A DNA stretch of 64,000 nucleotides from Streptomyces stelliscabiei (GTDB taxonomy: Bacteria > Actinomycetota > Actinomycetes > Streptomycetales > Streptomycetaceae): the NCBI RefSeq assembly GCF_014873495.1, contig NZ_JADBGF010000001.1, positions 8,680,001 to 8,744,000 of the forward strand, read 5' to 3'. This document shows, piece by piece, positions 1,506 through 28,205 of the stretch. Below the pieces are notes generated by a model, which did not search any database, had not been told where the DNA came from, and saw only the letters and a program-made list of their open reading frames with translations. The stretch's first letter is position 1; each line of letters begins with the position of its first letter. Made by a program: the position numbers and the translations under genes.

Positions 1506-1786
1506 GATGTCTTCCTCACTTCCCTTGTTCGGTTGGTCGTAACTGGTGCCACGCCCGCAGGTACTCCTATGAAGGGGCGCGTTCCTCATGGGCTTCGAGG
1601 AGATCGGCATAGACGGCTTCAGCCGCGCCCATCCCTCACTCGGTAGCTGTCGCACCTGGCTCGGCCACGCATGCCCGGACGCGTCATGGTCGATTCAGCC
1701 ACTGCCGCCCGCGAAGGCGCCGGCCAGCTGATGCGCCCGTCAGAAGTGGTGGGACATCCACACCACCTCGTGCTGTCGGCGACGGT

Positions 1787-2814
1787 TCACGGACCGGAGG
1801 CTGAGTCCCAGCCCTTACCGGCGCCGAAGTTGAGCGGGATGAACACCGGCGCTTCGATCTCGTGAATCCGACCCGAGTGGATCTTGAATATCTCCAGCCA
1901 CTGCGTGCTGAACGGCGACGGGTCGTCAGCCGGTCAACGCCCGGATAACCCGTGAGCGGGGCGCACCGGACGTCGCCGTTCTGCATGAACGGCGGAAACG
2001 CCGCTACGAGTTCCTTGACCTCGTCGATCACGATCGGCCGCCGCGGCCACACCTTCCACAGATCGGCGAAGAGGCCCGAATCGATCTGTTCGGCAGCACT
2101 GCGCACGCTCATGCCGTTCATGAGGATCTGCATCCGCTCCCGCTCGTCTGCGGGCGTGTTCTGCGGAAGCAGCAGTTGAGGCGGCGTCGAGTTGCCGGTG
2201 GTCCGCAGACCCGTCTCATGTCGCACACAGTCGGCCGCGAACGGAGCGCGGCGGCTGTCCTCGCTCGTCAGTGCGTCGAAATAGGAGTCGGCGATCAATT
2301 GCAATTCGACGCGATCATTGGGCTGCTCGAGCGGCACATCCTGGAGGAGCGCATCAGGGGGTCGCTCAAGATTCGCCCACGCCGCCGGCTGGATCATGTC
2401 AGTGAGGAGATGCTCACCTTCGATGATCCGTCCCTTCAGCACCCTGAGGCGTATGCCGGCGAGATACGGGCGTCCGCGAACCTCCAGCAACCCGCCGACG
2501 ACGATCTGCTCGGAGACCGCGTCAACGACGTCGACGCGGAAGCCTTCCGGCGCTTTGGTCAGCGCCCGCCACAAGACCCCTTCACCCATCGGAATGGCGA
2601 TGGCGTTCTCGGTCATGCGCACCTGCGGATCGAGGGCCAGTTCTGCGGGCGAGTGACGGAGCAGGGCGTCAAAGTATCGGTCGGCGAGCGACTTCAGCCA
2701 GCTCCGCGCTTCATCGCTCTCGTGGCCCGGCGTCCGCGCATACGCCACTTCGGTCCCGCTGTCGGCGACGAAGCGGGGTACTGCCTCCGAGTCGATCGTG
2801 TGGACGTTCTTCAT
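1787..2814 (-). pseudogene. SnoaL/NTF2-like two-domain protein with a late frameshift
   Basis: About 340 aa once the frame is corrected; looks like two tandem NTF2/SnoaL-like cone-fold domains, a fold used by polyketide cyclases, dehydratases, isomerases and non-catalytic binding proteins. Start ATG 2814 follows GAGAGGAC. The main frame is coherent to the residues GYPGVDRL near 1930. Beyond that it turns Arg/Ser-rich and runs to 1684, while the next frame gives a typical family ending (DPSPFSTQWLEIFKIHSGRI, then IHEIEAPVF) and stops at 1787. The shift lies between about 1927 and 1935, because the second frame carries a TGA just upstream. No slippery heptamer is visible, so this is a mutation or a sequencing error. 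A decayed paralogue lies at about 26.65-27.03 kb. Exact reaction unknown. Confidence 0.7.
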
Positions 2815-2962
2815 GACTTGTCCTCTCAACTCGCCTACGCAGCAAAGGCTGTCGAAGGGAGAAGCTCACAAACAGGCGTACGCCAGTTGCCACAGATCGC
2901 GCGGCCCCTCGCCGCTCTGCATGAACGGCGGCTGCAACGGCGGCTGCCTGGCCGGAGCCGGA

Positions 2963-3755: not shown

Positions 3756-4568
3756 CTACCAACCCGAGGAGGCCTTCAATGGAAGGATCTCCCGGATCTC
3801 GTCGATGATCCGAATCTCACCATCCACCACCTTGAAGACTCCCAGCATGTACATGGCTCCAGCGTCAGGCCGCGGGTGGTCCGGGATGGGGTGAAAGTCG
3901 ACCACCACAAAGCTCGCCGCCACGCCCAACTCTGTGTCGAGCACCGGAAATCGGCGCTCACGTGCGTGCGGGCGCGCCGCACGGGTGTCGTTGAGCGCGG
4001 ACGCACAAGTGTGAACCTTGGCGTCGGGCGACAGAAGCGTACGCAATGTATTCGTCGTCTTGGCGCCGTTGTCGAACTTGTCGCACCGGTAGTTGAAGCG
4101 CGGAATCGTCCCGTCGCTCTGCTCCAATCCCTCCCAATATGAATTGGCCGCTGCGCGCAGTCCCTCTCGATCGACGCGGCGGTCGGCCGGAACTACTGCT
4201 GAATAAATGATGTCGGGCTTCAGAAGGCGGGCAGCGTCGGCGAAATGCCCTTGGGAATCGGAACTGACGATCGCTTCGGCTTCGAGAATCAGCTGTCCAC
4301 GCACCTGAATACGTTGCGCGAAAGGCTGGGGCTGGCCGCCTTCGAATGTGACCACGCCCATGCAGACCGCCTGGCCGGTGAGCGGATCGGCGAAGCTGAT
4401 GATCCCTCCGAATTGCGGCGCCCGACGCCACAGCCCGTGGCCGATCTCCACGAGTGCACCGTTCTCGGTGCTGCGGAAGTCAGTATGGAATCCGAGCGTC
4501 TCAGGTGCGCCACTGGACAGCGCGGACAGATAGGCGGCGAGAAGGCCGGTCAGATCATTTGAGTCCAT
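3756..4568 (-). CDS. SnoaL/NTF2-like protein
   Basis: 270 aa with two consecutive SnoaL/NTF2-like regions (about 5-125 and 140-255). The ATG at 4568 shares its A with the TGA of the upstream flavin monooxygenase gene (TGATG), so the two are almost certainly translationally coupled. The fold is common in enzymes acting on polycyclic or aromatic intermediates and in small binding proteins; no catalytic dyad can be assigned with confidence. The coupling argues that it acts on, or protects, the substrate or product of the hydroxylase. The C terminus (FHPIPDHPRPDAG, then FKVVDGEIRIIDEIRE) is repeated almost word for word in a truncated paralogue at about 19.98-20.16 kb, next to the second hydroxylase. 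Confidence 0.8.
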   Translation of the reverse strand: MDSNDLTGLLAAYLSALSSGAPETLGFHTDFRSTENGALVEIGHGLWRRAPQFGGIISFADPLTGQAVCMGVVTFEGGQPQPFAQRIQVRGQLILEAEAIVSSDSQGHFADAARLLKPDIIYSAVVPADRRVDREGLRAAANSYWEGLEQSDGTIPRFNYRCDKFDNGAKTTNTLRTLLSPDAKVHTCASALNDTRAARPHARERRFPVLDTELGVAASFVVVDFHPIPDHPRPDAGAMYMLGVFKVVDGEIRIIDEIREILPLKASSGW

Positions 4569-9607: not shown

Positions 9608-10552
9608 ATGGAAAGAGGACACGTGCCGCAGTTTCGAGCAGACGCCTTCGGCCCTGGCGCCGTTCCCGGGGATGTGGCCGCCCACAACGCGGCCATGGCC
9701 CGGCAATTCGGCGATCCTCCAGACATCTGGGACGTCGGCATCGACCGAGCACGCAGCGGCGGCTTCATGCCGCTGCCACCGGTCTCACCTCGTGCGTTCG
9801 ACATCCAGATCGCCGACCGCCTGTCTCTGCACGTGGTCCCGAGCGCTCGTCCCCGGGCCGTGCTGCTGCACATCCACGGCGGCGGCTTCATACTCGGCGG
9901 TGCGGCGCACCAGGATGCCCTCCTGGAGAGGATGGCGGATGCGGTCGGAGCGACATGCGTCAGTGTCGAATACCGGCTGGCACCCGAGAATCCGTACCCG
10001 GCCGCATGGGACGACTGTGAAGAAGCCGCTCAATGGCTGCTGAAGCACGCAGGGGAGCGATTCGGAGCCGAGACCCTCCTCATCGCAGGCGAGTCCGCGG
10101 GCGCGTTGCTGGCCGTGGCGACCCTTCAGCGCCTGCGCAACCGCGGCCTAGCGGAACGTTTCCGCGGGGCAGCACTCAGTTTCGGGGTCTACGACTCGAC
10201 GATGACACCGAGCCAGACGCGCGCACGCACAGGAACGCTCAAGGCCGCGAGTATCGCGAGAATCGTCGATGCCTATGCTCCCGACATCTCCCGACGTCGC
10301 GACGCGGACCTGTCACCGCTGTACGGCGACCTCAGCGAGATGCCGCCGGCGCTGTTCACCGTGGGCACACTCGATGCCATGCTCGACGATTCGATGTTCA
10401 TGTACTGCCGCTGGCTCGCTGCCGGCGGCCGTGCCGAACTCGCGCTCTACCCAGGAGCGGACCACGCTTTCACCGAGACCGCGCATCCCTCGGCGAGTGA
10501 GGCCAACGCGCGTATCGATCAATTCCTGACGTCGTGCATCGAGTCGCACTGA
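9608..10552 (+). CDS. Alpha/beta hydrolase, hormone-sensitive-lipase type esterase
   Basis: 314 aa cytoplasmic esterase/lactonase. The oxyanion-hole HGGG motif (residues about 88-91), nucleophile elbow GESAG (about 160-164), acid Asp in GTLDAM, and His in GADHAF (about 286) give a full Ser-Asp-His triad of the HSL (GDXG) family. Length is typical. ATG 9608 is taken because AGAC and a GGAGCAAG-like site precede it; the region between it and the reductase stop (90 nt) shows no other gene. Probably in the same transcript as the reductase. It likely hydrolyses an ester or lactone formed by the oxygenases (inference). The last about 45 codons of a paralogue survive at 24113-24250, fused to a dioxygenase fragment. 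Confidence 0.88.
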   Translation: MERGHVPQFRADAFGPGAVPGDVAAHNAAMARQFGDPPDIWDVGIDRARSGGFMPLPPVSPRAFDIQIADRLSLHVVPSARPRAVLLHIHGGGFILGGAAHQDALLERMADAVGATCVSVEYRLAPENPYPAAWDDCEEAAQWLLKHAGERFGAETLLIAGESAGALLAVATLQRLRNRGLAERFRGAALSFGVYDSTMTPSQTRARTGTLKAASIARIVDAYAPDISRRRDADLSPLYGDLSEMPPALFTVGTLDAMLDDSMFMYCRWLAAGGRAELALYPGADHAFTETAHPSASEANARIDQFLTSCIESH

Positions 10553-13636: not shown

Positions 13637-13720
13637 TCAGAGTCGCAGCTCCGCCTCCGTGGCCACCTGTGCGGCCCACCCGACCGGGCCCGGTCCGAGC
13701 ACCGCCCGGGCGGCGGTCAC
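13637..13720 (-). pseudogene. PucR-type regulator, N-terminal stub (copy 1)
   Basis: A GTG at 13720 preceded by GAGGAGGAG opens a 27-codon frame (VTAARAVLGPGPVGWAAQVA, then TEAELRL) that matches the region near the start of the intact PucR-type regulator at 24696-25988, before running into the IS3 fragment. The intact copy has about 24 extra codons at its N terminus. Only the promoter and the first codons of copy 1 remain, so the dioxygenase gene at 13923 has lost its adjacent divergent regulator and may be controlled in trans by the copy at 24.7 kb. Confidence 0.7.
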
Positions 13721-13744
13721 CGGCTCCTCCTCGAGCGGTTCGCG

Positions 13745-13762
13745 TTGTGGTTGCCACCACAA
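13745..13762. promoter_or_regulatory. Conserved palindrome in the regulator/dioxygenase intergenic region (copy 1)
   Basis: Perfect inverted repeat TTGTGGT-TGCC-ACCACAA (7-bp arms, 4-bp spacer), 24 bp upstream of the GTG of the truncated regulator and about 160 bp upstream of the dioxygenase. The same palindrome, with 8-bp arms, is at 24653-24672 in the duplicate. It is the best candidate operator for the PucR-type regulator. Confidence 0.55.
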
Positions 13763-13922
13763 ACACCGGGCGGTTCATTGTCGTCCGGGACCGAGTGCGT
13801 GCAGGGGCCCAGCCGCTTGACTCTATCCAACGAGACCGGGCCGGGCCGCGACCGGACGACCGGACGCACGCCCCGCTTCGCCGCCCCTCGGGGGGTCCCC
13901 GACGCAGTGGAAGGAATGCTGG

Positions 13923-15395
13923 ATGCAGCAGATCAGGTTTCCGCAGAACGAGTTCCAGAGCTTCGAGGCGCCCATGCGCGCGGAGGTCGACATCCGAGGA
14001 CTGGAAGTAGTTCAGGGCGAGGTTCCGGAGCATCTCGACGGCGGCTTCTACCGACTGCTCGGCGATCGCCAGTGGCCTTCCTTCATCGAAAACGACATCT
14101 TCCTGCTGAACGAAGATGGCATGGCCTCATGCCTGCGCATCTCGAACGGCCGCGTGGACTTCCGGACACGGTATGTCAAAACTCCGCGATTCGTTGCCGA
14201 GGAGCAGGCCGGCCGGGCACTTTTCGGCGCGTACCGCAACCCGCTCACCGACGACCCGTCAGTGCAAGGCGTCCGCCGCGGAACAGCCAACGTGACCATG
14301 CTCTCGCACGCCGGCAAGTTCTTCGCCCTCAAGGAGGACAGCCCGCCGGTCGAGATGGATCCCTTCACCCTGGAGACGATCGGGGAGTACACCTTCGGCG
14401 GAGACTTCACGTCCGAAGCCTTCACCGCCCATCCGAAGATCGACCCGCGCACCGGCGAACTGGTGTTCTACGGCTACTGCGCGAAGGGCCCGGCCACGAA
14501 AGATATCGCATACTACGAGGCGGACCGGACCGGGAAGATCATCCACGAGACCTGGTTCGAAGCACCATACACCTGCATGGTGCACGACATCATGGTGACC
14601 GAAAACTACGTGGTGTTCCCTATTACGCCGCTGCGTCACGAATACGAATGGCTGGAGAAGCGCGAGCCGGCGTTCAAGTACGACACCGGCGAGCAGGTGC
14701 ACCTTGGTGTACTGCCGCGCAAGGGCACCGCAGATCAGATTCGCTGGTTCGTCGGCCCCAACCAGTGTCACGGGCACACCGTGGGCGCCTATGACGACGG
14801 TCGCTACATCTACGCCGACAACACGCTGAGTGTCCGCAGCTTCTTCCCGTTCTTCCCCAACGCCGACGGTTCGCCGTTCGACCCGGAAGACACGAAACCC
14901 TACATGAAGCGCTGGGTCATCGACATGGGTAGCGAGGGCGACACTTTCACGGAGCGTCAGCTGCTGCAGTATCCCTGCGAACTCCCGCGCATCGATACCC
15001 GTTTCGAGACCCAGCCCTACAGCTTCTGTGCGCTGAACCTTCTCGATGTGCCCGGTCAGGATCGGGTCGGCGGCGGGTGGCAGTGGATCGCGACCATGGA
15101 TGTCACCGGAAAGAAGCCGACCCGGATTCGCTATGCTGGCGACAACTGCTCGATCAGCGAGCCCCAGTTCGTTCCGGCGCACGACGGGGCTGCCGAAGGC
15201 GAAGGCTATGTCCTCGTTGTCGTCGGACGACACGAGGAAATGCGCAGCGAGTTCCTGATCCTCGACGCGCAGAATATCGACGGCCCGCCGATCGCGACCG
15301 TCGCGTTGCCGATGCGCGTGCGCAGCACGGGCCACGGATTTTGGTATGGGAAGCGTCAACTGATGGGCGAGACGCATCTTCTCGGGGCGAACTGA
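13923..15395 (+). CDS. Carotenoid-cleavage/lignostilbene-type dioxygenase
   Basis: 490 aa non-haem iron dioxygenase of the carotenoid cleavage oxygenase (RPE65) family, which splits a C=C double bond into two carbonyls. The four iron-ligand histidines are visible in FTAHPKID (H170), MVHDIMVTEN (H221), CHGHTVG (H283 or H285) and RSTGHGFW (H471). Length and spacing fit bacterial lignostilbene or apocarotenoid oxygenases. ATG 13923 follows GGAAGGAATG. The SDR gene begins 1 nt after its stop. With the aldehyde dehydrogenase at the island start this suggests cleavage of a stilbene-like or apocarotenoid substrate to aldehydes that are then oxidised (inference). The first 84 codons and the promoter are duplicated, inverted, at 24249-24500. 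Confidence 0.9.
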   Translation: MQQIRFPQNEFQSFEAPMRAEVDIRGLEVVQGEVPEHLDGGFYRLLGDRQWPSFIENDIFLLNEDGMASCLRISNGRVDFRTRYVKTPRFVAEEQAGRALFGAYRNPLTDDPSVQGVRRGTANVTMLSHAGKFFALKEDSPPVEMDPFTLETIGEYTFGGDFTSEAFTAHPKIDPRTGELVFYGYCAKGPATKDIAYYEADRTGKIIHETWFEAPYTCMVHDIMVTENYVVFPITPLRHEYEWLEKREPAFKYDTGEQVHLGVLPRKGTADQIRWFVGPNQCHGHTVGAYDDGRYIYADNTLSVRSFFPFFPNADGSPFDPEDTKPYMKRWVIDMGSEGDTFTERQLLQYPCELPRIDTRFETQPYSFCALNLLDVPGQDRVGGGWQWIATMDVTGKKPTRIRYAGDNCSISEPQFVPAHDGAAEGEGYVLVVVGRHEEMRSEFLILDAQNIDGPPIATVALPMRVRSTGHGFWYGKRQLMGETHLLGAN

Positions 15396-15396
15396 C

Positions 15397-16170
15397 ATGC
15401 CGCGCCTCGCCGGAAAAGTTGCGCTCGTCACCGGTGCCAGCCGGGGTATCGGCCGCGCCATCGCCTGTCGCCTCGCCGCCGATGGCGCCTTCGTCGTCAT
15501 CCACTACGGGAAAAGTGAAGAAGGCGCCCGAGAAACACTCGCCATGATAGAAGCGGAAGGCGGGAGTGGCTGCATCGTACAGGCCGATCTCGGCAAGCCG
15601 GCTCAGTCCGTCATTCCCATGTTCGAGGCTATCGACGGTGAGTTGATGGGGCGGCAGTCCGGCAAGGACCTGGATATCTTGGTCAACAACGCCGGGCAGA
15701 TGGTTATCGGAACCATCGAAACCATTACCGAAGCGCAGTTCGACGATGCCTTCACTGTGGATGTGAAGGCGCCATTCTTCATCACCCAGGCTGCGCTGGC
15801 GCGGTTGCGCGACGGCGGGCGCATCATCAACATCTCGTCCGGCACCGCGCGTGTCGTCAATCCCGGGGTGATCGCCTATGCCATGGCAAAAGGTGTGCTC
15901 GAGGTCTTCAGTAAGACCCTGGCGCTGCATCTCGGTCAGCGCCAGATCACCGTTAACACGGTGGCCCCCGGACCAACGGGCACCGAGGAGTTTCTGAGAA
16001 TGTCGGCGGGCGACCCCGGTTTCGTGAAGCAGGCAGCAGCGCAATCCGCGCTGGGACGTATCGGCACGCCCGAGGAGATCGCAGACATCGTGGCCTTCGT
16101 CGCGAGTGGTGAATCCAGTTGGATCACCGGACAGGTCATCGACGCGACTGGTGGAACCTTCCTCGGGTAG
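15397..16170 (+). CDS. Short-chain dehydrogenase/reductase (FabG-like)
   Basis: 257 aa classical SDR: nucleotide loop TGASRGIG (13-20), NNAG (about 96-99), active-site Ser in NISSG, YAMAK (about 167-171), and the C-terminal substrate loop APGPTGTEEF. It acts in the cytoplasm with NAD(P)(H) on a hydroxyl or carbonyl group. Its ATG follows the dioxygenase stop by one base, so the two proteins are made from the same message and probably act in consecutive steps, for example on the carbonyl product of alkene cleavage. Substrate unknown. Confidence 0.9.
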   Translation: MPRLAGKVALVTGASRGIGRAIACRLAADGAFVVIHYGKSEEGARETLAMIEAEGGSGCIVQADLGKPAQSVIPMFEAIDGELMGRQSGKDLDILVNNAGQMVIGTIETITEAQFDDAFTVDVKAPFFITQAALARLRDGGRIINISSGTARVVNPGVIAYAMAKGVLEVFSKTLALHLGQRQITVNTVAPGPTGTEEFLRMSAGDPGFVKQAAAQSALGRIGTPEEIADIVAFVASGESSWITGQVIDATGGTFLG

Positions 16171-16509: not shown

Positions 16510-16529
16510 CCCGGGATTAAAGTCCCGGG
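16510..16529. repeat. Subterminal hairpin, tnpB 3' side (right end)
   Basis: CCCGGGA-TTAAAG-TCCCGGG, 7-bp perfect arms with a 6-nt loop, lying 7 bases from the inferred element edge and just beyond the tnpB stop. Expected to be the right-end structure of the element and possibly the end of its guide RNA. Confidence 0.6.
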
Positions 16530-17785
16530 CTTGCACAAAGGGCACCAGTGGCTGTGGCGCTGCGTTTGCGTCCTGTCCCACGCCTCGGTTGCGGGGGTGG
16601 GCCTGGGGCGGTTGACTGCGCCCCGCGTCGCCACAACTCCCACGCTCTGGCACGGATGTTGCGGGAGGCGTTCCGGTCCGCGTGATCAACGAATCCGCAG
16701 GACCGGCACGCGAACCAGGCCTGGGAGACCCGGTTCGCCTTGTCCACATGCCCGCACTCGGCGCAGGTGCGGGAGGTGTACGCCGGATCAACGTACACCA
16801 CCGGCACCCCCGCTTTTCGGGCCTTGTACGCGATGAACTTCCCCAGCTGGGCGAAGGCCCAACTGGTATGTGTGGCCCGTTGGGGCTTGCGAAGCCGTAC
16901 CCGTTCGCGGATGCCTGTCAGGTTCTCCAGGGCGATTCCGCGACCGGTGCGTTCTGCCTCGGCCACCACATGTTTCGCGATCTTGTGGTTGATGTCCTTG
17001 GCCCGCCGTGCTTCCTTGCGCCGCCGTTTCTTCAGGCGGCGCTTGGCGGACGGGGTGTTCTTCTTCTGGAGCTTGCCACGCAGAGTCCGTTCCCGGGCAC
17101 GGATGCGGTTGAGCTCGCGTCCGGCCATGATCTCGCCGTCGGATGTGGTGGCGATGTTGACGATGCCCAGGTCGATGCCAAGGAGGTCATGCGGTTCGGT
17201 GTTCGGCGGGGCTTCGGGCACCTCGCAGGTGGCGTTCAGGAACCACATGCCGTCCCGGTACAGCAGGTCCGATTCGCCCTTTCGGTACAGGGTCAAGGTG
17301 GCCAACTGCTCCGGTGCAGCGGTGAACGCGACGTCCTTGACCCGTCCGCGCACGGTCCAGATCGAGATCCGCCGCTCGGGAACCTGCCAGGACAGCATCC
17401 GGTCGTCGTACGGCTGCGCCCCTTGCGGACGGAAGGCGATCGGTTTCTCAGTGGCCCGGCGGTAGCGCTTCGAGCCGCGCGTGCCGAGGTTCCCGGCCTT
17501 GAGGTTGGCCTTGAGCGTGGCGTACGCATCGCACGTCTATTTCACGACGTGCTGGGCGGCCTGCGCGCCCAGTCCCCAGCGAGCCTTGATCTCGCCATAG
17601 GTGTGCTCGCGCAGCGCGAAGTTCCGCTTCACATCCTTCTCGAACGCGATGTTGCCGACCCAGGTGGCCGCCTCGTTGCAGGCGCGCAGGGTCGCCTCAA
17701 GTGCCGTCGCCTGCTCCGGCGTCGGCAACAGCCTGACCTGCACCACCAGCTTCACGATCACCCAACGTACACACCCGTACGACAC
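16517..17785 (-). pseudogene. tnpB: TnpB (IS605 OrfB) RNA-guided nuclease with a premature stop
   Basis: Frame of about 422 codons. RuvC motifs are intact: GIDLGIVN (first Asp), IALENLTG (Glu) and DHADRNASRN (last Asp), with the four-Cys zinc ribbon CAECGH...CRSCGF between them. An in-frame TAG at 17537-17539 after AAQHVVK breaks the protein at residue 83; the frame continues without change (CDAYATLKANLKAGNLGTRG). A fragment starting downstream would lack the N-terminal guide-RNA-binding part. TnpB proteins are RNA-guided DNA endonucleases that cleave the donor site; this copy is probably inactive unless the stop is suppressed. Confidence 0.8.
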
Positions 17786-19651: not shown

Positions 19652-19990
19652 GTGGCCGACGAGCGGCTTCCGCGGCTGGCCGAATCGGTCCGCGACGCTG
19701 CCGACGAGATCACCACCGCGCTCGCCCGCGGAAATTCAGCACGCTCTCGACGCATCCACGTGCCGCCGACTCGACGGCGGAACCAAATCTGGCGACGACG
19801 CTGCCACGGGTGATGCTGCTCCACGAGTGGACCCATCCCACCTCGCACGCCGGTTCACCCGGTTCGTCCGGCTCGAGGTCATGCTCACGGACGTTGTCAC
19901 GACCCGGATCGGGAACGACCCGGCGCGTGCCGAGCTGATCGCCGGAGCCGCGAAAGCCGGTCACATGGCCGCCGGCTACCAGCCCGACGT
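19652..19990 (+). pseudogene. C-terminal remnants of transcriptional regulators
   Basis: Two plus-strand frames hold protein-like sequence. From 19652, VADERLPRLAESVRDAADEI then TTALARGN resembles the end of an IclR effector domain. From about 19827, SHLARRFTRFVRLEVMLTDV then TRIGNDPARAELIAGAAKA resembles a TetR C-terminal region and continues to about 19985. There it meets the end of the opposite-strand SnoaL remnant. Both are fragments without DNA-binding parts. They may be the far halves of genes broken by the IS nest at 16.3-19.6 kb. Confidence 0.35.
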
Positions 19991-20165
19991 CGATCCCAAC
20001 GGCATCATCTCGCGTATCTCATCGATGATCCGCAGCTCACCATCGACGGCCTTGAACAAGCCGAGCAGGTACATCGACCCGGCGTCAGGTCGAGGATGGC
20101 CCGGGATGGGTGAAAGTCGACCACGGCGAAGCTTCCGGCCACCCCGGGGCAGCAGTCCTGCGCTC
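19976..20165 (-). pseudogene. C-terminal remnant of a second SnoaL/NTF2-like gene
   Basis: The frame ending at 19976 (HPRPDAGSMYLLGLFKAVDG, then ELRIIDEIREMMPLGSTSGW) is a close copy of the C terminus of the SnoaL-like protein at 3756-4568. Just upstream the copy has lost one C relative to the intact gene (CACCCATCCC against CACCCCATCCC), which changes frame, and everything before about residue 220 is missing. It follows the second HpaB-type gene directly, as in the first cluster, so the hydroxylase-SnoaL pair was duplicated and then the SnoaL half was deleted. Confidence 0.75.
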
Positions 20166-20166
20166 G

Positions 20167-21420
20167 TCAGGCGATGCCTACCGGGGGCAGCCCGAAGTGC
20201 GTGCGCCCGAAGTTGATGGCGGCGCTGTCCACCTGATGCGCAACATGGCCCCGCATCACGCATATGTTGCGCCAGTAGCGACCGAGCATGCTGTCCTTTC
20301 GTGCTGCGGAACTGCCGGCGGTCCGGAAGATGATGTCTGCCGCCTGATGCGCGAGTTCGATACCTTGCAAGAGGACCAGCGTGATGCGTCGCTCGACCTC
20401 ATCCGAGCAGGGTTCATTCGTCGCCTGGATTTCGTCCGCAACCTTCATGAAATCGGCAGACGCCTGAAGCAGCGCGGCCCGCGCGGTGTCCACCAAGGCC
20501 CGGCACTTCCCGAAATTCAGCTGGTACTCCGAAAGCTCGTAACGGGAGACCTTGATCGGTCCAGCTGGCCTGCGGACGCGGAACCCCTCCTCATAGAGGT
20601 CCAGCGCGCCCTCGGCCGCGCCGATGACCACCGATGCCGACTCCGCGATGGTGAACGGCCGGAAGGGTCCGTGAAAGAGCGGGCTGTCCTCGTAGAACGC
20701 CGGCGGCAGAAGAGTGTGCCGCATCTCCATAGCGCCGGGGTAGGGCTTCGTCCGGTGCTCCGGAACGAAGATGTCGTCAAGCGTGACGCGATCCGACCCC
20801 GTTCCCTGCATCCCGATCGTGTTCCAATTACGGACGATCTCGTAGTCCCGGCGATCGAACAAGCCCATGCGTACCGAGTCGACGTTCGGCTGCGGCTCGT
20901 CCACCACGAATACCAGCAGGATATGGGTACCGTGCTCGCTGCCCGACGCGTAGTCCCATGCGCCGCTCACCCGGTATCCGCCCGGCACCGCGACACCCAC
21001 GCCTTGCCGCGCTGCGACCTCAGGTGCCCGGAAATCGCCGACGTGGCCATAGGCGTCGAGTTGAGCAGCCAGGGGATAGGTCGACAACTGGTAGACATGG
21101 CCAAGGGTCAGCGAGAGCACCCAGGCAGTCTCGGGGCAGCCGCGCGAGATCGCCGCGATCATCCGCACGTAGGTCGGCAGATCGAAGCCGTAGCCACCGA
21201 AGGCCTTCGGCTGGACGACCCGGTAGAAACCGGCGTCCACCAACGCCTGGTTCGTTTCGACGGAGATGTTCCCCTCCGCCTCTGTCGCGTCCTGCCGCGA
21301 GCGCAACATGTCGCACATCGACTCGGCTCGACGGATCAACTCTTCGGGATCGAGATCGGGCTCGGGCGGCGCGATCCTGGGGATGGACTGAAGTTCCTGG
21401 GCCGGCATCGCGGAGGTCAT
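20167..21420 (-). CDS. Second HpaB/HsaA-type flavin-dependent monooxygenase
   Basis: 417 aa, full length and intact, clearly paralogous to the protein at 4568-5812: shared FGGYGFDLPT, RGCPETAWVLS, GDFRAPEVAA, GAWDYASG, IGMQGTGS and SSAARKD...LGRYWRN. Same acyl-CoA-dehydrogenase fold and the same expected role as oxygenase of a two-component, reduced-flavin hydroxylase. Start ATG 21420 follows GAGGAAA. It needs a reductase; none is adjacent, so the one at 9020-9517 may serve. It lies 139 nt after the double-GntR regulator on the same strand. Sequence differences across the substrate-facing C-terminal bundle suggest a related but distinct substrate (inference). Confidence 0.87.
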   Translation of the reverse strand: MTSAMPAQELQSIPRIAPPEPDLDPEELIRRAESMCDMLRSRQDATEAEGNISVETNQALVDAGFYRVVQPKAFGGYGFDLPTYVRMIAAISRGCPETAWVLSLTLGHVYQLSTYPLAAQLDAYGHVGDFRAPEVAARQGVGVAVPGGYRVSGAWDYASGSEHGTHILLVFVVDEPQPNVDSVRMGLFDRRDYEIVRNWNTIGMQGTGSDRVTLDDIFVPEHRTKPYPGAMEMRHTLLPPAFYEDSPLFHGPFRPFTIAESASVVIGAAEGALDLYEEGFRVRRPAGPIKVSRYELSEYQLNFGKCRALVDTARAALLQASADFMKVADEIQATNEPCSDEVERRITLVLLQGIELAHQAADIIFRTAGSSAARKDSMLGRYWRNICVMRGHVAHQVDSAAINFGRTHFGLPPVGIA

Positions 21421-21559: not shown

Positions 21560-22846
21560 TCAGAGAAGTGAGCGAATCACGTTCGAGAATGTCTCAACCC
21601 GCGCCCGCTGGGCGCTTCGTGCCGCTTGCGGGTCATTTTTCCGGAACGCTGCCAGGACGGGCCGGGTCAGCGGAAGGTACAACTGGTTCATGATACTGAG
21701 AACGGAAATTCTCTCGGGGATTCTGGCCGGAGGATAGCCTCGCAAGCTTTGGGTAAGGATATCCAACAACGGATTGTCGACCGCTTCCAGCGCCGCTTCC
21801 TCGACGGCGAAAATTGAGGCGAGTCCCGTATTCGCCCCCTGATCCAGCGCCCGGCGTAAACTGCTGAGCGCGGTGGCGATCTGCTGACAGGTCGTCGGGG
21901 TTGCCCGCTCAGCGGCCAGCGCAACCATTTCGACGCTCAGCAGCCGGAAGATACGCATGACGATGTCGGGATGGATCCCGCTACTGGCGAGGAGACAGGC
22001 GACCAGCCGCGCGACGGCACCGGCACGAGGTGTCCTGCTCACGAGACCACGCCCACGGCCACAGTAGGTTTCCGCGGCACCTGCGCTCTCCAGGATGCGG
22101 ACCGCCTGGCGGAACGCGCCCCGATCGACGCCATAGCGGAAGCAGAGATCCTCTTCCGAGCCGAGGCGATGGCCCTGCACCCACTGTTCCGCGGTGCATT
22201 CCCGCAGAATGCGTTCGGTGATCTGACCCGCTCGTGAGCGGTTCAGGACCTCCGGCGCGAACAGTACGGTTGGATTGCCCGGGATCGCTCCGTTTCCGGA
22301 CATCATCTGGCGGATCGCACCGAGCACGTCATCGAATAGGTCGAGTGCGACGGAAACTTGCCCGACGATGAGATCAGCGTCGTTGCGGACGTCGTCGGAC
22401 AGTCCGTTGCGGACGCGTTGGATTGCTTCTTCGGCCTCGACCAGCTGCGGTTCCGTCGTTCCGAAGAAGAGCACGAAACCCATCAGGAATTTGGCCGTAC
22501 GAGTGTGGTCGACTTCGCGGACCCGAAGCCCGCTGTTCGGCCCGCTGGGGCCGCGCACCATGCGGGCCGTGCCGCGCACCTCGAGAATGCGCACCGCCTC
22601 GCGGACCACGGCGCGACCGACACCGTATCTCTCCGCGAGTTCGACCTCGGATCCCAACGACGCGTCCTGCGGCCAACCGCGCGCGATGAGATCCTCCTCG
22701 ACAAGGCGGGCGATCCGGCAGGCTCCCTTTTCGTCAGCCCCGCCCCACTCGTCGATCACGTCGGCCAGCAGACTTGCATCGTGGACGGCGGAAGACATCG
22801 CAGCAGCCGGAAGGCCAGAATGATGCCTGCGTAGCACCTCGGGCAT
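21560..22846 (-). CDS. Regulator with two GntR-type helix-turn-helix segments
   Basis: 428 aa, longer than the usual 230-250 aa of FadR-type GntR proteins. A first winged HTH is at about 40-105 (GSEVELAERYGVGRAVVREA, VRILEVRGTARMV) and a second at about 205-270 (GSEEDLCFRYGVDRGAFRQA, VRILESAGAAETY). The second is followed by a helical region (about 285-425) resembling an FCD ligand domain. Two GntR wings in one chain suggest binding to a direct-repeat or extended operator as a pseudo-dimer. ATG 22846 is 1 nt after the MFS stop, so it is co-translated with the transporter. It probably senses a pathway compound and controls this operon. Confidence 0.8.
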   Translation of the reverse strand: MPEVLRRHHSGLPAAAMSSAVHDASLLADVIDEWGGADEKGACRIARLVEEDLIARGWPQDASLGSEVELAERYGVGRAVVREAVRILEVRGTARMVRGPSGPNSGLRVREVDHTRTAKFLMGFVLFFGTTEPQLVEAEEAIQRVRNGLSDDVRNDADLIVGQVSVALDLFDDVLGAIRQMMSGNGAIPGNPTVLFAPEVLNRSRAGQITERILRECTAEQWVQGHRLGSEEDLCFRYGVDRGAFRQAVRILESAGAAETYCGRGRGLVSRTPRAGAVARLVACLLASSGIHPDIVMRIFRLLSVEMVALAAERATPTTCQQIATALSSLRRALDQGANTGLASIFAVEEAALEAVDNPLLDILTQSLRGYPPARIPERISVLSIMNQLYLPLTRPVLAAFRKNDPQAARSAQRARVETFSNVIRSLL

Positions 22847-22847
22847 G

Positions 22848-24116
22848 TCAGCTACTCCCCTCGAGAACAGGGGAATCGTTCTGCTGGCGGGGGCTGTCGA
22901 CGTAGCGGTAGGTGGGAAGGAATAGGGAGCCGATGAACCCGACGGTAATCACGCCTGCGACGATCGCCATGGGCACCGCGTAGCCACCGGCGAGATCGTG
23001 GCCGAGTCCAAGAAGGACCGGCCCGATTCCCATGCTGATCGTGAGGGCCGCGAGAGCGCCGCCAAGTATTTCGGAGCTCGCCTTCATGCCGCAATAGCGG
23101 GTCACCAGGAGGGGTACGAGGCCGGTGATGCTGCTGTACGTGAGCCCGAGCAGCGCCATGCCCGTCAGCAGGCCGGGGGTGCCTCCCAGGAAGAGCAGCG
23201 CCATGCCGATCGGCGACAGGAGCAGGAACGCGGCGACGATCTTCGGACTTGGCACCCGATCCATGACGAACCCGCCGACCAACGGTCCTACGGGGCCGAC
23301 GAGCGAGTACAGAGACAGGGCGAAAGTGGCGGTGTCCGGACTGACGCCCTGTCCGGTCGTCCACGCGACGATGTGGTTCGTGACGGCCACCAGCCCTGCG
23401 ATCACCAGGCAGTTCGAGCCGATGACCATGAGGAACGCCCGGGATCGCAGTGCCTGGGAGCCGGTCAGTCCCTCATCTCTCGACAGCGCGGGACCGGCCC
23501 CATGCCGGGCAGGCGCCTCGCGAATCAGCAGGATGGAAACCGGGATCGTCACCGCGGCGGCGACGACGGCGAGCATGCGGTACGCGGCGCGCCAGCCGTC
23601 GGCCTCGATCAGGCCCGCAGAGACCGGCACGGCCACGGCGGTCGCGATGGCGGGCACCCCGCTCAGCACCAGCCCGAGAGCGAGGCCCCGGTTCTTGTCG
23701 AACCAGCCACTGATGACCTTGGCATAGGAAATGGGCCCCGCGATCGTGGCGCCGAGCGCCATCAGGAGCGCAACCAGATACATCGCCGCGGGTTGGCCAC
23801 CGATGAGTGACAGCGAGAAGAAGCCCGCACACCAGAGCACGAGCCCGAAGGGCAAGGTGCGGCGCACGCCGTAACGATCGATGAGCCGACCGACGAACGG
23901 GCCGACGACGGCGCCTGCCAAGCCGACCAGCAGGGACGCCTGAGGATAGAGCGACAAACTCCAGCCGAATTCGTCGGACACCGGCTTCAGGAAGACCGGA
24001 AAGGTTCCTATGAACAGCGGGATGATGCCGAATCCGATGCAGATTCCGCAACCGATGGCCGCCACCGCGGCAGTACGTGCGTTTCGTCCTTCCTTCGGCG
24101 AGGCCGGGGTGCTCAC
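22848..24116 (-). CDS. MFS transporter (monocarboxylate/oxalate-formate antiporter-like)
   Basis: 422 aa integral membrane protein with 12 predicted helices. GPFVGRLIDRYGVRRTLPFG in the loop after helix 2 is the MFS signature, and FPVFLKPVSDEFGWSLS near the N terminus is common in the monocarboxylate/oxalate-formate-type branch. Start GTG 24116 overlaps the stop of the esterase remnant by 4 bp (GTGA), so in the ancestral operon the transporter was coupled to a full esterase. It probably imports the aromatic or acidic substrate of the pathway. A longer open frame upstream to 25745 is a read-through of unrelated fragments, not part of the protein. A related MFS is at 29884-31167. Confidence 0.85.
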   Translation of the reverse strand: MSTPASPKEGRNARTAAVAAIGCGICIGFGIIPLFIGTFPVFLKPVSDEFGWSLSLYPQASLLVGLAGAVVGPFVGRLIDRYGVRRTLPFGLVLWCAGFFSLSLIGGQPAAMYLVALLMALGATIAGPISYAKVISGWFDKNRGLALGLVLSGVPAIATAVAVPVSAGLIEADGWRAAYRMLAVVAAAVTIPVSILLIREAPARHGAGPALSRDEGLTGSQALRSRAFLMVIGSNCLVIAGLVAVTNHIVAWTTGQGVSPDTATFALSLYSLVGPVGPLVGGFVMDRVPSPKIVAAFLLLSPIGMALLFLGGTPGLLTGMALLGLTYSSITGLVPLLVTRYCGMKASSEILGGALAALTISMGIGPVLLGLGHDLAGGYAVPMAIVAGVITVGFIGSLFLPTYRYVDSPRQQNDSPVLEGSS

Positions 24117-24250
24117 CGGGACTCCAGGCACTGGACGAGCAATCGATCGATCCGCGCATTCGCTGCGCCCGCCGAGGGGTGGGGTGTCTCGATGAATGCG
24201 TGATCCGCCCCCGGATAAATCGCTGGTTCGGCGCGCACGCCGGCGGCAAT
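24113..24250 (-). pseudogene. C-terminal remnant of a second HSL-type esterase
   Basis: The last about 45 codons of an esterase close to the one at 9608-10552: IAAGVRAEPAIYPGADHAFI, then ETPHPSAGAANARIDRLL, against LAAGGRAELALYPGADHAFT in the intact protein. The catalytic His (GADHAF) is kept but HGGG and GESAG are gone. Directly upstream, without an IS between them, lies the N-terminal fragment of a dioxygenase gene; the join is at about 24248-24252. Confidence 0.85.
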
Positions 24251-24500
24251 ACCGTGTCCGGAAGTCCACGCGGCCGTCCGGGATGCGCAGGCATGAGGCC
24301 ATGCCATCTTCGTTCAGCAGGAAGATGTCGTTTTCGATGAAGGATGGCCACTGGCGATCGCCGAGCAGTCGGTAGAAGCCGCCGTCGAGATGCTCCGGAA
24401 CCTCGCCCTGAACTACTTCCAGTCCTCGGATGTCGATCTCCGCGCGCAGGGGCGCCTCGAAGCTCTGGAACTCGTTCTGCGGAAATCTGATCTGCTGCAT
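24249..24500 (-). pseudogene. N-terminal fragment (84 codons) of a second carotenoid/lignostilbene-type dioxygenase
   Basis: ATG 24500 opens a frame whose first 84 codons copy the intact dioxygenase at 13923, with a few substitutions (M18L, V22I, S74P, N75D). It then breaks after DFRTRY and runs into the esterase remnant. All four iron-ligand histidines are lost, so there is no activity. The promoter region upstream is also a near copy, in inverted orientation relative to copy 1. Confidence 0.9.
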
Positions 24501-24652
24501 CCTGCATTCCTTCCACCGCGTCGGGGACCCCGTCGAGGGGCGGCGAAGCGGGGCGGGCGTCCGGTCGCGGCTCGGCCCGGTTTCGTTGGATAGAGTCAAG
24601 GGGCTGGGCCCCTGCACGCACTCGGTCCCGGACGACAATGAACCGCCCGGTG

Positions 24653-24672
24653 TTTGTGGTGGCAACCACAAA
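24653..24672. promoter_or_regulatory. Conserved palindrome in the regulator/dioxygenase intergenic region (copy 2)
   Basis: TTTGTGGT-GGCA-ACCACAAA, 8-bp perfect arms and a 4-bp spacer, 24 bp before the GTG of the PucR-type regulator. It is the counterpart of 13745-13762. Position favours autoregulation and control of the divergent dioxygenase promoter. Confidence 0.55.
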
Positions 24673-24695
24673 GGGAACCGCTCGAGGAGGAGCCG

Positions 24696-25988
24696 GTGGC
24701 CGCACGATGGGTGCTCGATCTTCGGCCCGGGCCCACGCAACCGCCGGTGACGCCCTGCTGCCCGGCGCCGACGGTGACCGCCGCCCGGGAGGTGCTCGGA
24801 CCGGGCCCGGTCGGGTGGGCCGCACAGGTGGCCAGGGAGGCGGAGCTGCGAGTCGTCGAGCTCGTGCCGGAGATGGCCGGTTCCACCTCCATCGACACCG
24901 TCCGACGGCCCGCGGAGGCGTGTATCCTCGCCATCCTCATCGCCCTGCACGCCGACACCCCCGGCGAGGCGGTCGCGACTCCGCAGCTGGCGCTCGACGG
25001 CAACCGCGACAGCGTGCACCGCGGCGTCGCCCTGGACCGGGTGCTCCACGCGATGTGGATCTCGCACGTGCACCACTACGAGCGACTGCTCGAGTTCCTC
25101 GACCAGACCCTGCCTCCGCACGAGCTCGCTGGCACGGTGCGCCGGGTGACCGAGCTTTCCTTCGCCTACGTGGAGGCATTCACGGCGCGGTTCAGCGCCG
25201 AGTACACCGCGGAGCGGGAGGCGTGGCTGGGCAGCCTCGCCGCAACGAGGCGTCAGGTCATCGAGGACATCATTGCGGGTGTCCCCATATCGGTGCGCGA
25301 TCCGGAGCTGGTGCTCGGCCTCGACCTGTCGCGTCACCACCGGGCCGCCGTGCTCTGGACCGAGGACGATGCGGGGACCGACTCCGCCCACACCCTCCAC
25401 CGGCTCGCGGGCCGCCTCGCCGACGCCGCGGATGCCGGCCGACCGCTGGTGGTGCGCCCCGGCGGGACCTCGCTGTGGCTGTGGATGAGCTGGGCCGCGC
25501 CGCCGGAGCAGCGGCTCGCCGAGCGGCTGCGCGGCGCCGTCGACGCCCCGCACGGTATCCGAGCCGCCCTCGGCCCGCTCGACGCCGGCATTGACGGGTT
25601 CCGCCGCAGCCACCTCGGCGCCCTTGAGGTCCGCCGCGTCGCTGCAGCCTCCACCCGACGGTCGTCGTGGCTCGCCGACCATGACGAACTCGAGGTGATC
25701 GCCCTGCTCACGGCGAACCCCGAACACGCCCGCTGGTTTGTCCACCGCCAGCTCGGTGCGCTGGCCACGGACGACGACCGCTCGGCGGAGCTACGCGAGA
25801 CGTTGCGGCTCTACCTGGCATTCGAGCGCAGCCGCACGGCCGCCGCCCAAGTGCTGCACGTCGCCCCGAACACCGTCGGCTACCGTGTCCGGCAGGCCGA
25901 GGCCATCCTCGGTACCGACCTGGCCAAGGACCCGCTCCGGATCGGGCTCGCGCTAGAGATCTACGACTATCTGAATCCTGAAAAATAG
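24696..25988 (+). CDS. PucR/CdaR-type transcriptional regulator
   Basis: 430 aa. The C-terminal HTH_30 (about 375-425: LRLYLAFERSRTAAAQVLHV, APNTVGYRVRQAEAILG) is the PucR-type DNA-binding helix-turn-helix; the middle (about 200-330) fits the GGDEF-like sensor fold of CdaR/PucR proteins, and the N-terminal part (about 50-180) the RsbT-like/DUF domain often seen before it. GTG 24696 follows GAGGAGGAG at ideal spacing; further upstream codons are outside family similarity. It is divergent from a dioxygenase promoter whose gene is now only a fragment, and a near-identical promoter drives the intact dioxygenase at 13923. So it is likely an activator of the dioxygenase in trans. Confidence 0.85.
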   Translation: MAARWVLDLRPGPTQPPVTPCCPAPTVTAAREVLGPGPVGWAAQVAREAELRVVELVPEMAGSTSIDTVRRPAEACILAILIALHADTPGEAVATPQLALDGNRDSVHRGVALDRVLHAMWISHVHHYERLLEFLDQTLPPHELAGTVRRVTELSFAYVEAFTARFSAEYTAEREAWLGSLAATRRQVIEDIIAGVPISVRDPELVLGLDLSRHHRAAVLWTEDDAGTDSAHTLHRLAGRLADAADAGRPLVVRPGGTSLWLWMSWAAPPEQRLAERLRGAVDAPHGIRAALGPLDAGIDGFRRSHLGALEVRRVAAASTRRSSWLADHDELEVIALLTANPEHARWFVHRQLGALATDDDRSAELRETLRLYLAFERSRTAAAQVLHVAPNTVGYRVRQAEAILGTDLAKDPLRIGLALEIYDYLNPEK

Positions 25989-27183: not shown

Positions 27184-28205
27184 ATGCAGGCTTACGTCGG
27201 GATCGATGTGCATCGCCGCCGGCCGCAGATCGCCGTGATGGACGAGAGCGGCCGGACGGCGGTGAACCGGAACGTCCCCAACGGGCGCGAGACGGTGCTG
27301 GGAGTGATCGGTGACCTGCCGGTGGGCACGCTGGTGGTGTTCGAGGCCGCGTATGGCTGGGGCTGGCTGATCGAGTTGCTCCAGGACTACGGCTTCGAGC
27401 CGCATCTGGCCCACCCGTTGCAGTGCAAAGCGATCGCTGCGGCCCGGTTGAAGAACGACAAGGTTGACGCGGCCACCCTGGCCCACCTGCTGCGCACGGA
27501 TCTGCTGCCCGAGGCTTGGATCGCGCCGCCGGACATCCGCGAGCAGCGGGCCGTGCTGCGCCACCGAGCACAGCTCGTGCGGCTGCGCACCTTGTTGCGT
27601 AACCGCATCCACGCGGTTTTGGCCGATCACGGCTGCGACCGCGGGGCCAACTGCTTCAGTGGCGTGGGCCGGGAGTGGCTTCAGACGCTGCCGCTGCCGG
27701 AGGGGGCCCGGCGGACGGTGGCCGACCGGCTGGAGGTCATCGACGCACTGCAGGCCGTCATCGACCGGCTAGACGCCTCGCTCGCCGCGGTGGCAAAGGC
27801 CGACCCGCGGGTCAAGGCCCTGACCGCGCTGCCCGGCATCGGCCCGCCCCGCTCACCGCTTTGATCATCGCGGCGGAGGTCGGCGACATCCGCCGGTTCT
27901 CCTCGGCCCGCAAGCTTGCCTCCTGGGCCGGGCTCACCCCCACGGTCCGCGGCTCGGACCGCACCGTGCGCTACGGGCACATCTCCAAGCATGGAGATCC
28001 CTGGCTGCGCTGGATCATGAACCAGGCCGCGCAGACCGCCAAGCGCACCCCGCCGTATGCCGCCTGCTTCGAACAGATTGCCTACCGCCGCGGCAGGAAG
28101 ATCGCCACCATCGCGGTCGCCCGCAAACTTCTCACCCACGCCTATCACGTGCTGCGCGAGGTCGACGCGGCCCAGCAGCAGAAGGAGCCGTGCACAACGG
28201 CATGA
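27184..28205 (+). mobile_element. IS110-family transposase with one frameshift
   Basis: ATG 27184 begins MQAYVGIDVHRRRPQIAVMD with the first DEDD Asp; VVFEAAYGW carries the Glu and KNDKVDAATLAHLL the last two Asp. The frame stops at 27864 after ALPGIGPPRSPL; one shift near 27848 restores the C-terminal domain (TALIIAAEVGDIRRFSSARK, then RYGHISKHGDPWLRWIMNQA) to the stop at 28205. Otherwise complete (about 340 aa). A run of C (GGCCCGCCCCGC) sits at the shift, so a sequencing or replication slip is possible. Confidence 0.82.

Follow-up and report, generated by a model that had tools for sequence, protein, structure and literature searches.

A dioxygenase start joined to an esterase tail in Streptomyces stelliscabiei, a probable deletion scar in an apparently eroding second operon

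Two related operons and a joint between two gene remnants

The window, i.e. the analysed stretch of 64,000 nucleotides of the 10.5-Mb Streptomyces stelliscabiei genome (positions 8,680,001 to 8,744,000 of NZ_JADBGF010000001.1), contains two operons with related genes. The copy-1 side carries full-length dioxygenase, SDR, esterase, LLM, HpaB1 and SnoaL1 genes. Its dioxygenase (copy 1; 13923..15395, plus strand, 490 aa) is intact and is a member of the Pfam family RPE65 (PF03055; 397.4 bits, with a gathering cut-off of 27); an SDR gene follows directly (15397..16170, plus strand), and the intact esterase Est1 (314 aa) is located at 9608..10552 on the same strand. Copy 1 resembles lignostilbene-alpha,beta-dioxygenase (NCBIfam NF053778) over the full length with E=1e-161, but its score of 538.8 is below the curated cut-off of 800, so that this match does not settle the substrate. 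Between the two operons lies part of a gene for a TnpB-type RNA-guided endonuclease (16517-17398).

The second operon, on the minus strand, starts with two gene remnants, described below, which are followed by a gene for an MFS transporter (22848..24116, 422 aa), a GntR regulator gene with two GntR domain stretches and an FCD domain (21560..22846), a gene under purifying selection for an HpaB2-like flavin monooxygenase (Acyl-CoA_dh_2; 20167..21420), and a SnoaL2 remnant (19979..20110), which looks like a second deletion scar and corresponds to the last 44 of the 269 residues of a Novosphingobium counterpart. The two HpaB copies are alike at 70% of DNA and 65% of protein positions. The name SnoaL comes from the first-pass annotation: of the gene after HpaB2 only the last 44 residues are recognised, and the full copies, i.e. 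the SnoaL-like gene at 3759-4568 and its Novosphingobium counterpart, matched no Pfam family, and the name is retained here without such a match.

The first remnant is the start of a second, RPE65/lignostilbene-dioxygenase-like gene (24249..24500, minus strand), 84 codons from the ATG at 24500. It tracks copy 1 for exactly these 84 codons, ending at base 24249, with 95% protein identity to residues 1-84 in the alignment and E=2.0e-52 in a search of the own genome, and the fragment by itself exceeds the RPE65 gathering cut-off of 27 (PF03055; 37.7 bits, E=1.8e-9). The second remnant (24113..24247, minus strand) consists of the last 44 codons and the stop of an esterase, read in a frame different from that of the dioxygenase, and retains the conserved YPGADHAF stretch. 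From 24247 to 24113 it shares 72% of DNA and 69% of protein positions with the last 44 codons of Est1 (E=2.7e-15 in the own genome). Given these two E-values, both alignments are far from chance. The remnant is 74-75% identical to the esterases of Novosphingobium and Caulobacter as against 69% to the window's own esterase, and its origin as a recent copy of the latter was rejected. The 64-aa ORF holding the remnant matched no Pfam family, Abhydrolase_3 (PF07859) included; the remnant was identified by alignment to full esterases of this kind, among which Est1 scores 168.9 bits with PF07859.

According to the first-pass annotation, the second dioxygenase copy breaks after residue 84 and continues, with no IS element or linker, as the last about 45 codons of an esterase, whose stop overlaps the MFS start by GTGA. 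All of this was confirmed: alignment of both parents across the joint revealed no insert between the dioxygenase piece and the esterase tail, 44 esterase codons were matched, and the GTGA at 24116-24113 combines the esterase stop with the GTG start of the MFS gene. The sequence GGTATTGCC spans the joint and is shared by dioxygenase copy 1 only up to CGGTAT; the parent esterase, against which the length of a microhomology would be measured, is lost.

A dioxygenase-esterase fusion at the protein level, which the same annotation had implied, was rejected: the two pieces stand in different frames, and thus no such protein is encoded. The frame opened by the dioxygenase ATG crosses the esterase tail without an internal stop, enters the MFS gene instead and reaches its stop, forming an open chimeric frame of 550 aa (22848..24500, minus strand) made up of 84 residues of the dioxygenase, the 44 esterase codons read out of frame and the MFS in frame. 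Such a frame needs no special explanation, since 70% of 7,879 out-of-frame 43-codon windows from 17 genes of the window are open in the phase of the joint (36% in the other phase), and the MFS phase matches the dioxygenase frame by chance in one case out of three. Inside the esterase tail, shortly before the MFS GTG, lies a GGAG stretch, a candidate ribosome-binding site.

Occurrence of the joint in Streptomyces

S. scabiei 87.22 (NC_013929.1) has the same sequence over 22848-25000 (100% identity), inside a match of 21.5 kb with 99.96% identity. An assembly artefact is hardly credible and was rejected: the same joint is present in two assemblies, within a match that is near-identical but not letter-for-letter equal, and no point in support of an artefact was found. 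Over a tract of ~155 kb that holds the whole window (about 8635001-8790000), the identity to S. scabiei 87.22 is 99.9-100%; the comparison covered 8635001-8744000 and 8775001-8790000 completely, and the part between them by two 5-kb probes. Five pieces from the chromosome centre are 88-93% identical between the two genomes, and 15 of the 18 flank probes outside the tract match at 87-97%, the other three having no match in the stretch fetched. The difference between the tract (99.9-100%) and its surroundings (87-97%) indicates that the joint in both genomes is one event, recently shared. The tract as such looks like a large segment that was exchanged recently, in chromosomes whose backbone is otherwise mostly collinear. 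Two pieces of ~1.3 kb, opposite window positions 27766 and 60883, are found within it in S. scabiei 87.22 only.

A match at E<=0.001 was found in 259 of 392 Streptomyces genomes. Among the matches listed, the full joint occurs in two genomes, those with the recently shared tract, a third genome has a different joint, and no match outside three genomes (G000, G296 and G222) exceeds 59 bits. A short real gene conserved across species, which the first-pass annotation had named as the case against its own reading, was thus not found and is rejected for these 392 genomes and the matches listed: only this tract is known to carry the joint, and the identical copy in S. scabiei reflects recent sharing.

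S. griseorubiginosus DSM 40469 has another joint in this operon. In its genome the dioxygenase-SDR pair is intact on a 6.5-kb contig (96.7% DNA identity), and the second operon is located on another contig (L053:2900-4134), where GntR residue 39 directly follows dioxygenase codon 23, in frame. The esterase tail and the MFS gene are absent, the best MFS elsewhere in the genome being 38% identical, and the fused GntR gene has a frameshift near residue 337. This deletion may be either a separate event or a later enlargement of the one in S. scabiei. The scar region of the SnoaL-like gene after HpaB2 (window 19979-20166) is common to both species. Lone stops in esterase 1 (residue 3) and SDR7206 (residue 551 of 559) of S. 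griseorubiginosus were considered as signs of decay and rejected, being too close to the gene ends.

The 550-aa dioxygenase-MFS frame could also be a working new protein, a deletion-born fusion maintained by selection. That no stop interrupts the frame between the dioxygenase ATG and the end of the MFS gene, and that the joint in S. griseorubiginosus is likewise in frame with the next surviving gene, is consistent with this explanation; however, open frames of this kind are expected often (70% of the 7,879 windows, with one in three for the MFS phase), the MFS gene retains its own start along with the GGAG stretch, the GntR fusion of S. griseorubiginosus is frameshifted, and the same joint in two genomes stems from recent sharing. 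We consider a functional fusion protein very unlikely.

The pattern of selection was determined by the dN/dS ratio (simple Nei-Gojobori) between genes of both operons and their counterparts in S. griseorubiginosus. In the second operon and beside it, the ratios are 0.135 for HpaB2, 0.281 for the neighbouring regulator PucR and 0.484 for GntR2 (residues 40-337); the MFS gene, with no counterpart in S. griseorubiginosus, was left out. On the copy-1 side, the ratios are 0.204 for the dioxygenase, 0.100 for SDR, 0.209 for HpaB1, 0.094 for LLM, 0.349 for SDR7206, 0.375 for the flavin reductase, 0.231 for the esterase and 0.197 for IclR. By these values HpaB2 and PucR look kept and still constrained, while GntR2 looks the least so, with weak constraint.

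Gene order in distant relatives

A pattern scan of genome contigs, which yielded six dioxygenase loci, identified the best relatives of the dioxygenase outside Streptomyces in Caulobacter and Novosphingobium (73-75%); one of the six loci (L016) has no other gene of the set. Of 150 Streptomyces genomes, four gave a match to the dioxygenase at E<=1e-60, these being the own genome and three with 39-43% identity. As the closest relatives outside the genus (73-75%) are much more similar than the next best ones within it (39-43%), the catabolic region was probably acquired laterally. A plasmid search gave six records, each covering just 1-2% of the query. The MFS is 57% identical to a Novosphingobium MFS located directly after an esterase. 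At strict cut-offs it was detected in one of 296 Actinomycetes genomes, the own one, in one of 347 genomes of the Novosphingobium family, that of Leaf2 itself, and in none of 385 genomes of the Caulobacter class, in a search that had no positive control.

Novosphingobium sp. Leaf2 (L015, L057-L058) carries the order esterase-MFS-GntR-LLM-SDR-HpaB-SnoaL-IclR intact on one strand, with the esterase stop and the MFS start overlapping in ATGA; on the opposite strand are a TonB receptor gene, a second HpaB gene and then a dioxygenase-SDR pair. This neighbourhood resembles that in the window by the esterase-MFS overlap, the order GntR...HpaB-SnoaL and a dioxygenase-SDR pair nearby, but differs in that no break was seen in these genes and the pair is on the other strand, behind the TonB receptor and the second HpaB. 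Caulobacter sp. UNC279MFTsu5.1 has both units on one strand: the esterase comes first, and the dioxygenase-SDR pair follows 8.4 kb further downstream, after a 41% dioxygenase relative. The Caulobacter esterase also ends with ATGA (L055 about 9945), with no MFS gene directly after it; this is possibly another loss at the same joint.

A distant intact operon was found in the own genome, 18 kb to the left of the window (8661474 to 8651372), with the order dioxygenase-MFS-GntR-(SnoaL-like short gene)-HpaB-like-SDR-flavin reductase-aldehyde dehydrogenase. Like the second operon, this operon, which is also present in S. griseorubiginosus, has the dioxygenase first and then MFS, GntR, the short SnoaL-like gene and the HpaB-like gene on one strand. 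It differs in having no esterase and in ending with SDR, flavin reductase and aldehyde dehydrogenase, and the similarity is low: dioxygenase, MFS, GntR and HpaB of the window are 27-39% identical to the S. griseorubiginosus counterpart of the distant operon. Its short gene, as well as window 1684-2829, matched no Pfam family.

The ancestral order proposed in the first-pass annotation, from a dioxygenase through an esterase and MFS to HpaB and SnoaL, is thus half supported by these comparisons, each half appearing to exist somewhere: esterase-MFS-GntR...HpaB-SnoaL is intact in Novosphingobium, but none of the four neighbourhoods read has this dioxygenase ahead of the esterase within a single operon (the own genome with S. 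scabiei, S. griseorubiginosus, Novosphingobium and Caulobacter).

Inverted duplication and origin of the joint

The dioxygenase start at the joint is a part of an inverted duplication. The right arm (24249..24854, minus strand) comprises the start of PucR, the intergenic region and the dioxygenase start; the left arm (13640..14174, plus strand) continues as the intact dioxygenase, and its PucR part is truncated at 13640 with a further ~76 bases lost. The arms align in three ungapped pieces that are 95-97% alike, or at 93.5% in a gapped alignment of the main 480 columns. The divergent PucR-type regulator gene is thus truncated beside copy 1 and intact beside copy 2 (24696..25988, plus strand); the listed ORF begins at 24654, and the GTG start at 24696 was placed with the help of the corresponding ORF of S. 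griseorubiginosus. A stretch left of 13640 that resembles a transposase end by eye had no Pfam match in the one frame tested.

Each arm has a perfect palindrome TTGTGGTNNNNACCACAA (7+7), at 24654..24671 and 13745-13762. A scan of the window allowing two mismatches yielded these two perfect sites only, with 0.06 expected, and the palindrome is unchanged in all four arm copies, two in the own genome and two in S. griseorubiginosus. Its position beside PucR makes it a candidate PucR operator. A scan for sigma-70-type promoters revealed no promoter-like site. The four arm copies differ pairwise by 16-24 of 249 ungapped columns; in the shared promoter stretch, four of the 249 columns are informative and they conflict (two group by species, one by copy and one is crossed), giving no consistent order for the duplication and the species split.

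The similarity of the arms (93.5-97%) is much higher than that of the HpaB and esterase copies (70% and 72% of DNA positions), so that the dioxygenase piece and the rest of the second operon are not simply of one age; the piece may be a later arrival or a product of homogenisation. The joint could also be explained without a deletion that united two genes of one operon, with the dioxygenase start foreign to the second operon: the stretch from PucR through the intergenic region to the dioxygenase start would have been copied in inverted orientation next to an esterase that had been truncated before, either through illegitimate recombination or through an inversion that duplicated its breakpoints, and the joint would be a duplication breakpoint. 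The arms are indeed inverted and end exactly at the joint, the HpaB and esterase copies are just 65-72% alike, and in Novosphingobium the dioxygenase-SDR pair forms a separate unit on the opposite strand. On the other hand, the intact PucR beside copy 2 suggests that copy 2 is the original and copy 1 the moved one, the joint of S. griseorubiginosus is at the same place but has other end points, and both arms are present in both species. We regard the inverted copy as possible but rather unlikely.

The best explanation is probably a deletion scar that unites two genes in an eroding second operon. It is favoured by the clean joint of two parents without an insert, by the common strand and the divergent PucR still beside the dioxygenase start, by the different and larger deletion in the same operon of S. 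griseorubiginosus, and by the SnoaL2 scar common to both species. Further support comes from gene order, i.e. from the intact esterase-MFS-GntR-...-HpaB-SnoaL of Novosphingobium with its ATGA overlap, and from the distant intact operon of the same genome, with the dioxygenase first and then MFS and GntR. Erosion of the operon is also consistent with the constraint on HpaB2 (0.135) and PucR (0.281) and with the palindrome kept in four copies. The explanation is weakened by the dN/dS of GntR2 (0.484) and the result of the promoter scan. It is disfavoured by the same comparisons of gene order, in which this dioxygenase never preceded the esterase in one operon: Novosphingobium has the two units on opposite strands, and the Caulobacter dioxygenase-SDR pair is located 8.4 kb downstream of the esterase. 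The deletion scar proposed by the first-pass annotation gains from the clean joint and from the different deletion in S. griseorubiginosus, whereas the undeleted dioxygenase...esterase order was not found.

Under the deletion explanation, a redundant second operon in the catabolic region would have been eroded by deletions, one of which would have united dioxygenase codon 84 with the last 44 esterase codons upstream of the MFS gene. If the order had been dioxygenase-SDR-esterase-MFS, ~2.8 kb or more would have been removed, comprising the rest of the dioxygenase, SDR and most of the esterase. The surviving MFS-GntR-HpaB2 genes would now be read from the dioxygenase promoter under PucR, and translation of MFS would begin either at its own GTG or at the dioxygenase ATG, in the latter case with a product of 550 aa whose N-terminal extension would have no function. 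A more far-reaching version assumes that different deletions in two Streptomyces lineages each placed a downstream gene, MFS in one and GntR in the other, in frame behind the start codon of the dioxygenase and under its PucR-linked promoter, leaving a transport/regulation unit that PucR would co-regulate in trans with the intact dioxygenase-SDR copy via the duplicated palindromic operators; we consider this version unlikely.

The closest published idea that we found is that of deletion-born fusion genes, in which part of one gene comes to stand behind the start of another through a deletion (Kaul et al. 2026 preprint, PMC12803068). The mlaE-htpX case described in that preprint likewise runs into an out-of-frame fragment. 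Compared with the fusions described there, the present joint differs in that the reading frame continues beyond the out-of-frame piece into MFS, a third gene that is intact and is read in its proper frame, that a related species bears a different joint in the same operon, and that the undeleted state was not found. A literature search for Streptomyces scabies with carotenoid oxygenase found nothing.

A deletion scar in an eroding operon is ordinary genome decay. The lesson of the joint is that a junction of two genes at the DNA level need not mean a fusion of those two at the protein level. The locus shows a duplicated catabolic operon in decay, with its promoter region and part of the downstream genes still in position, and with different end points in the two species.
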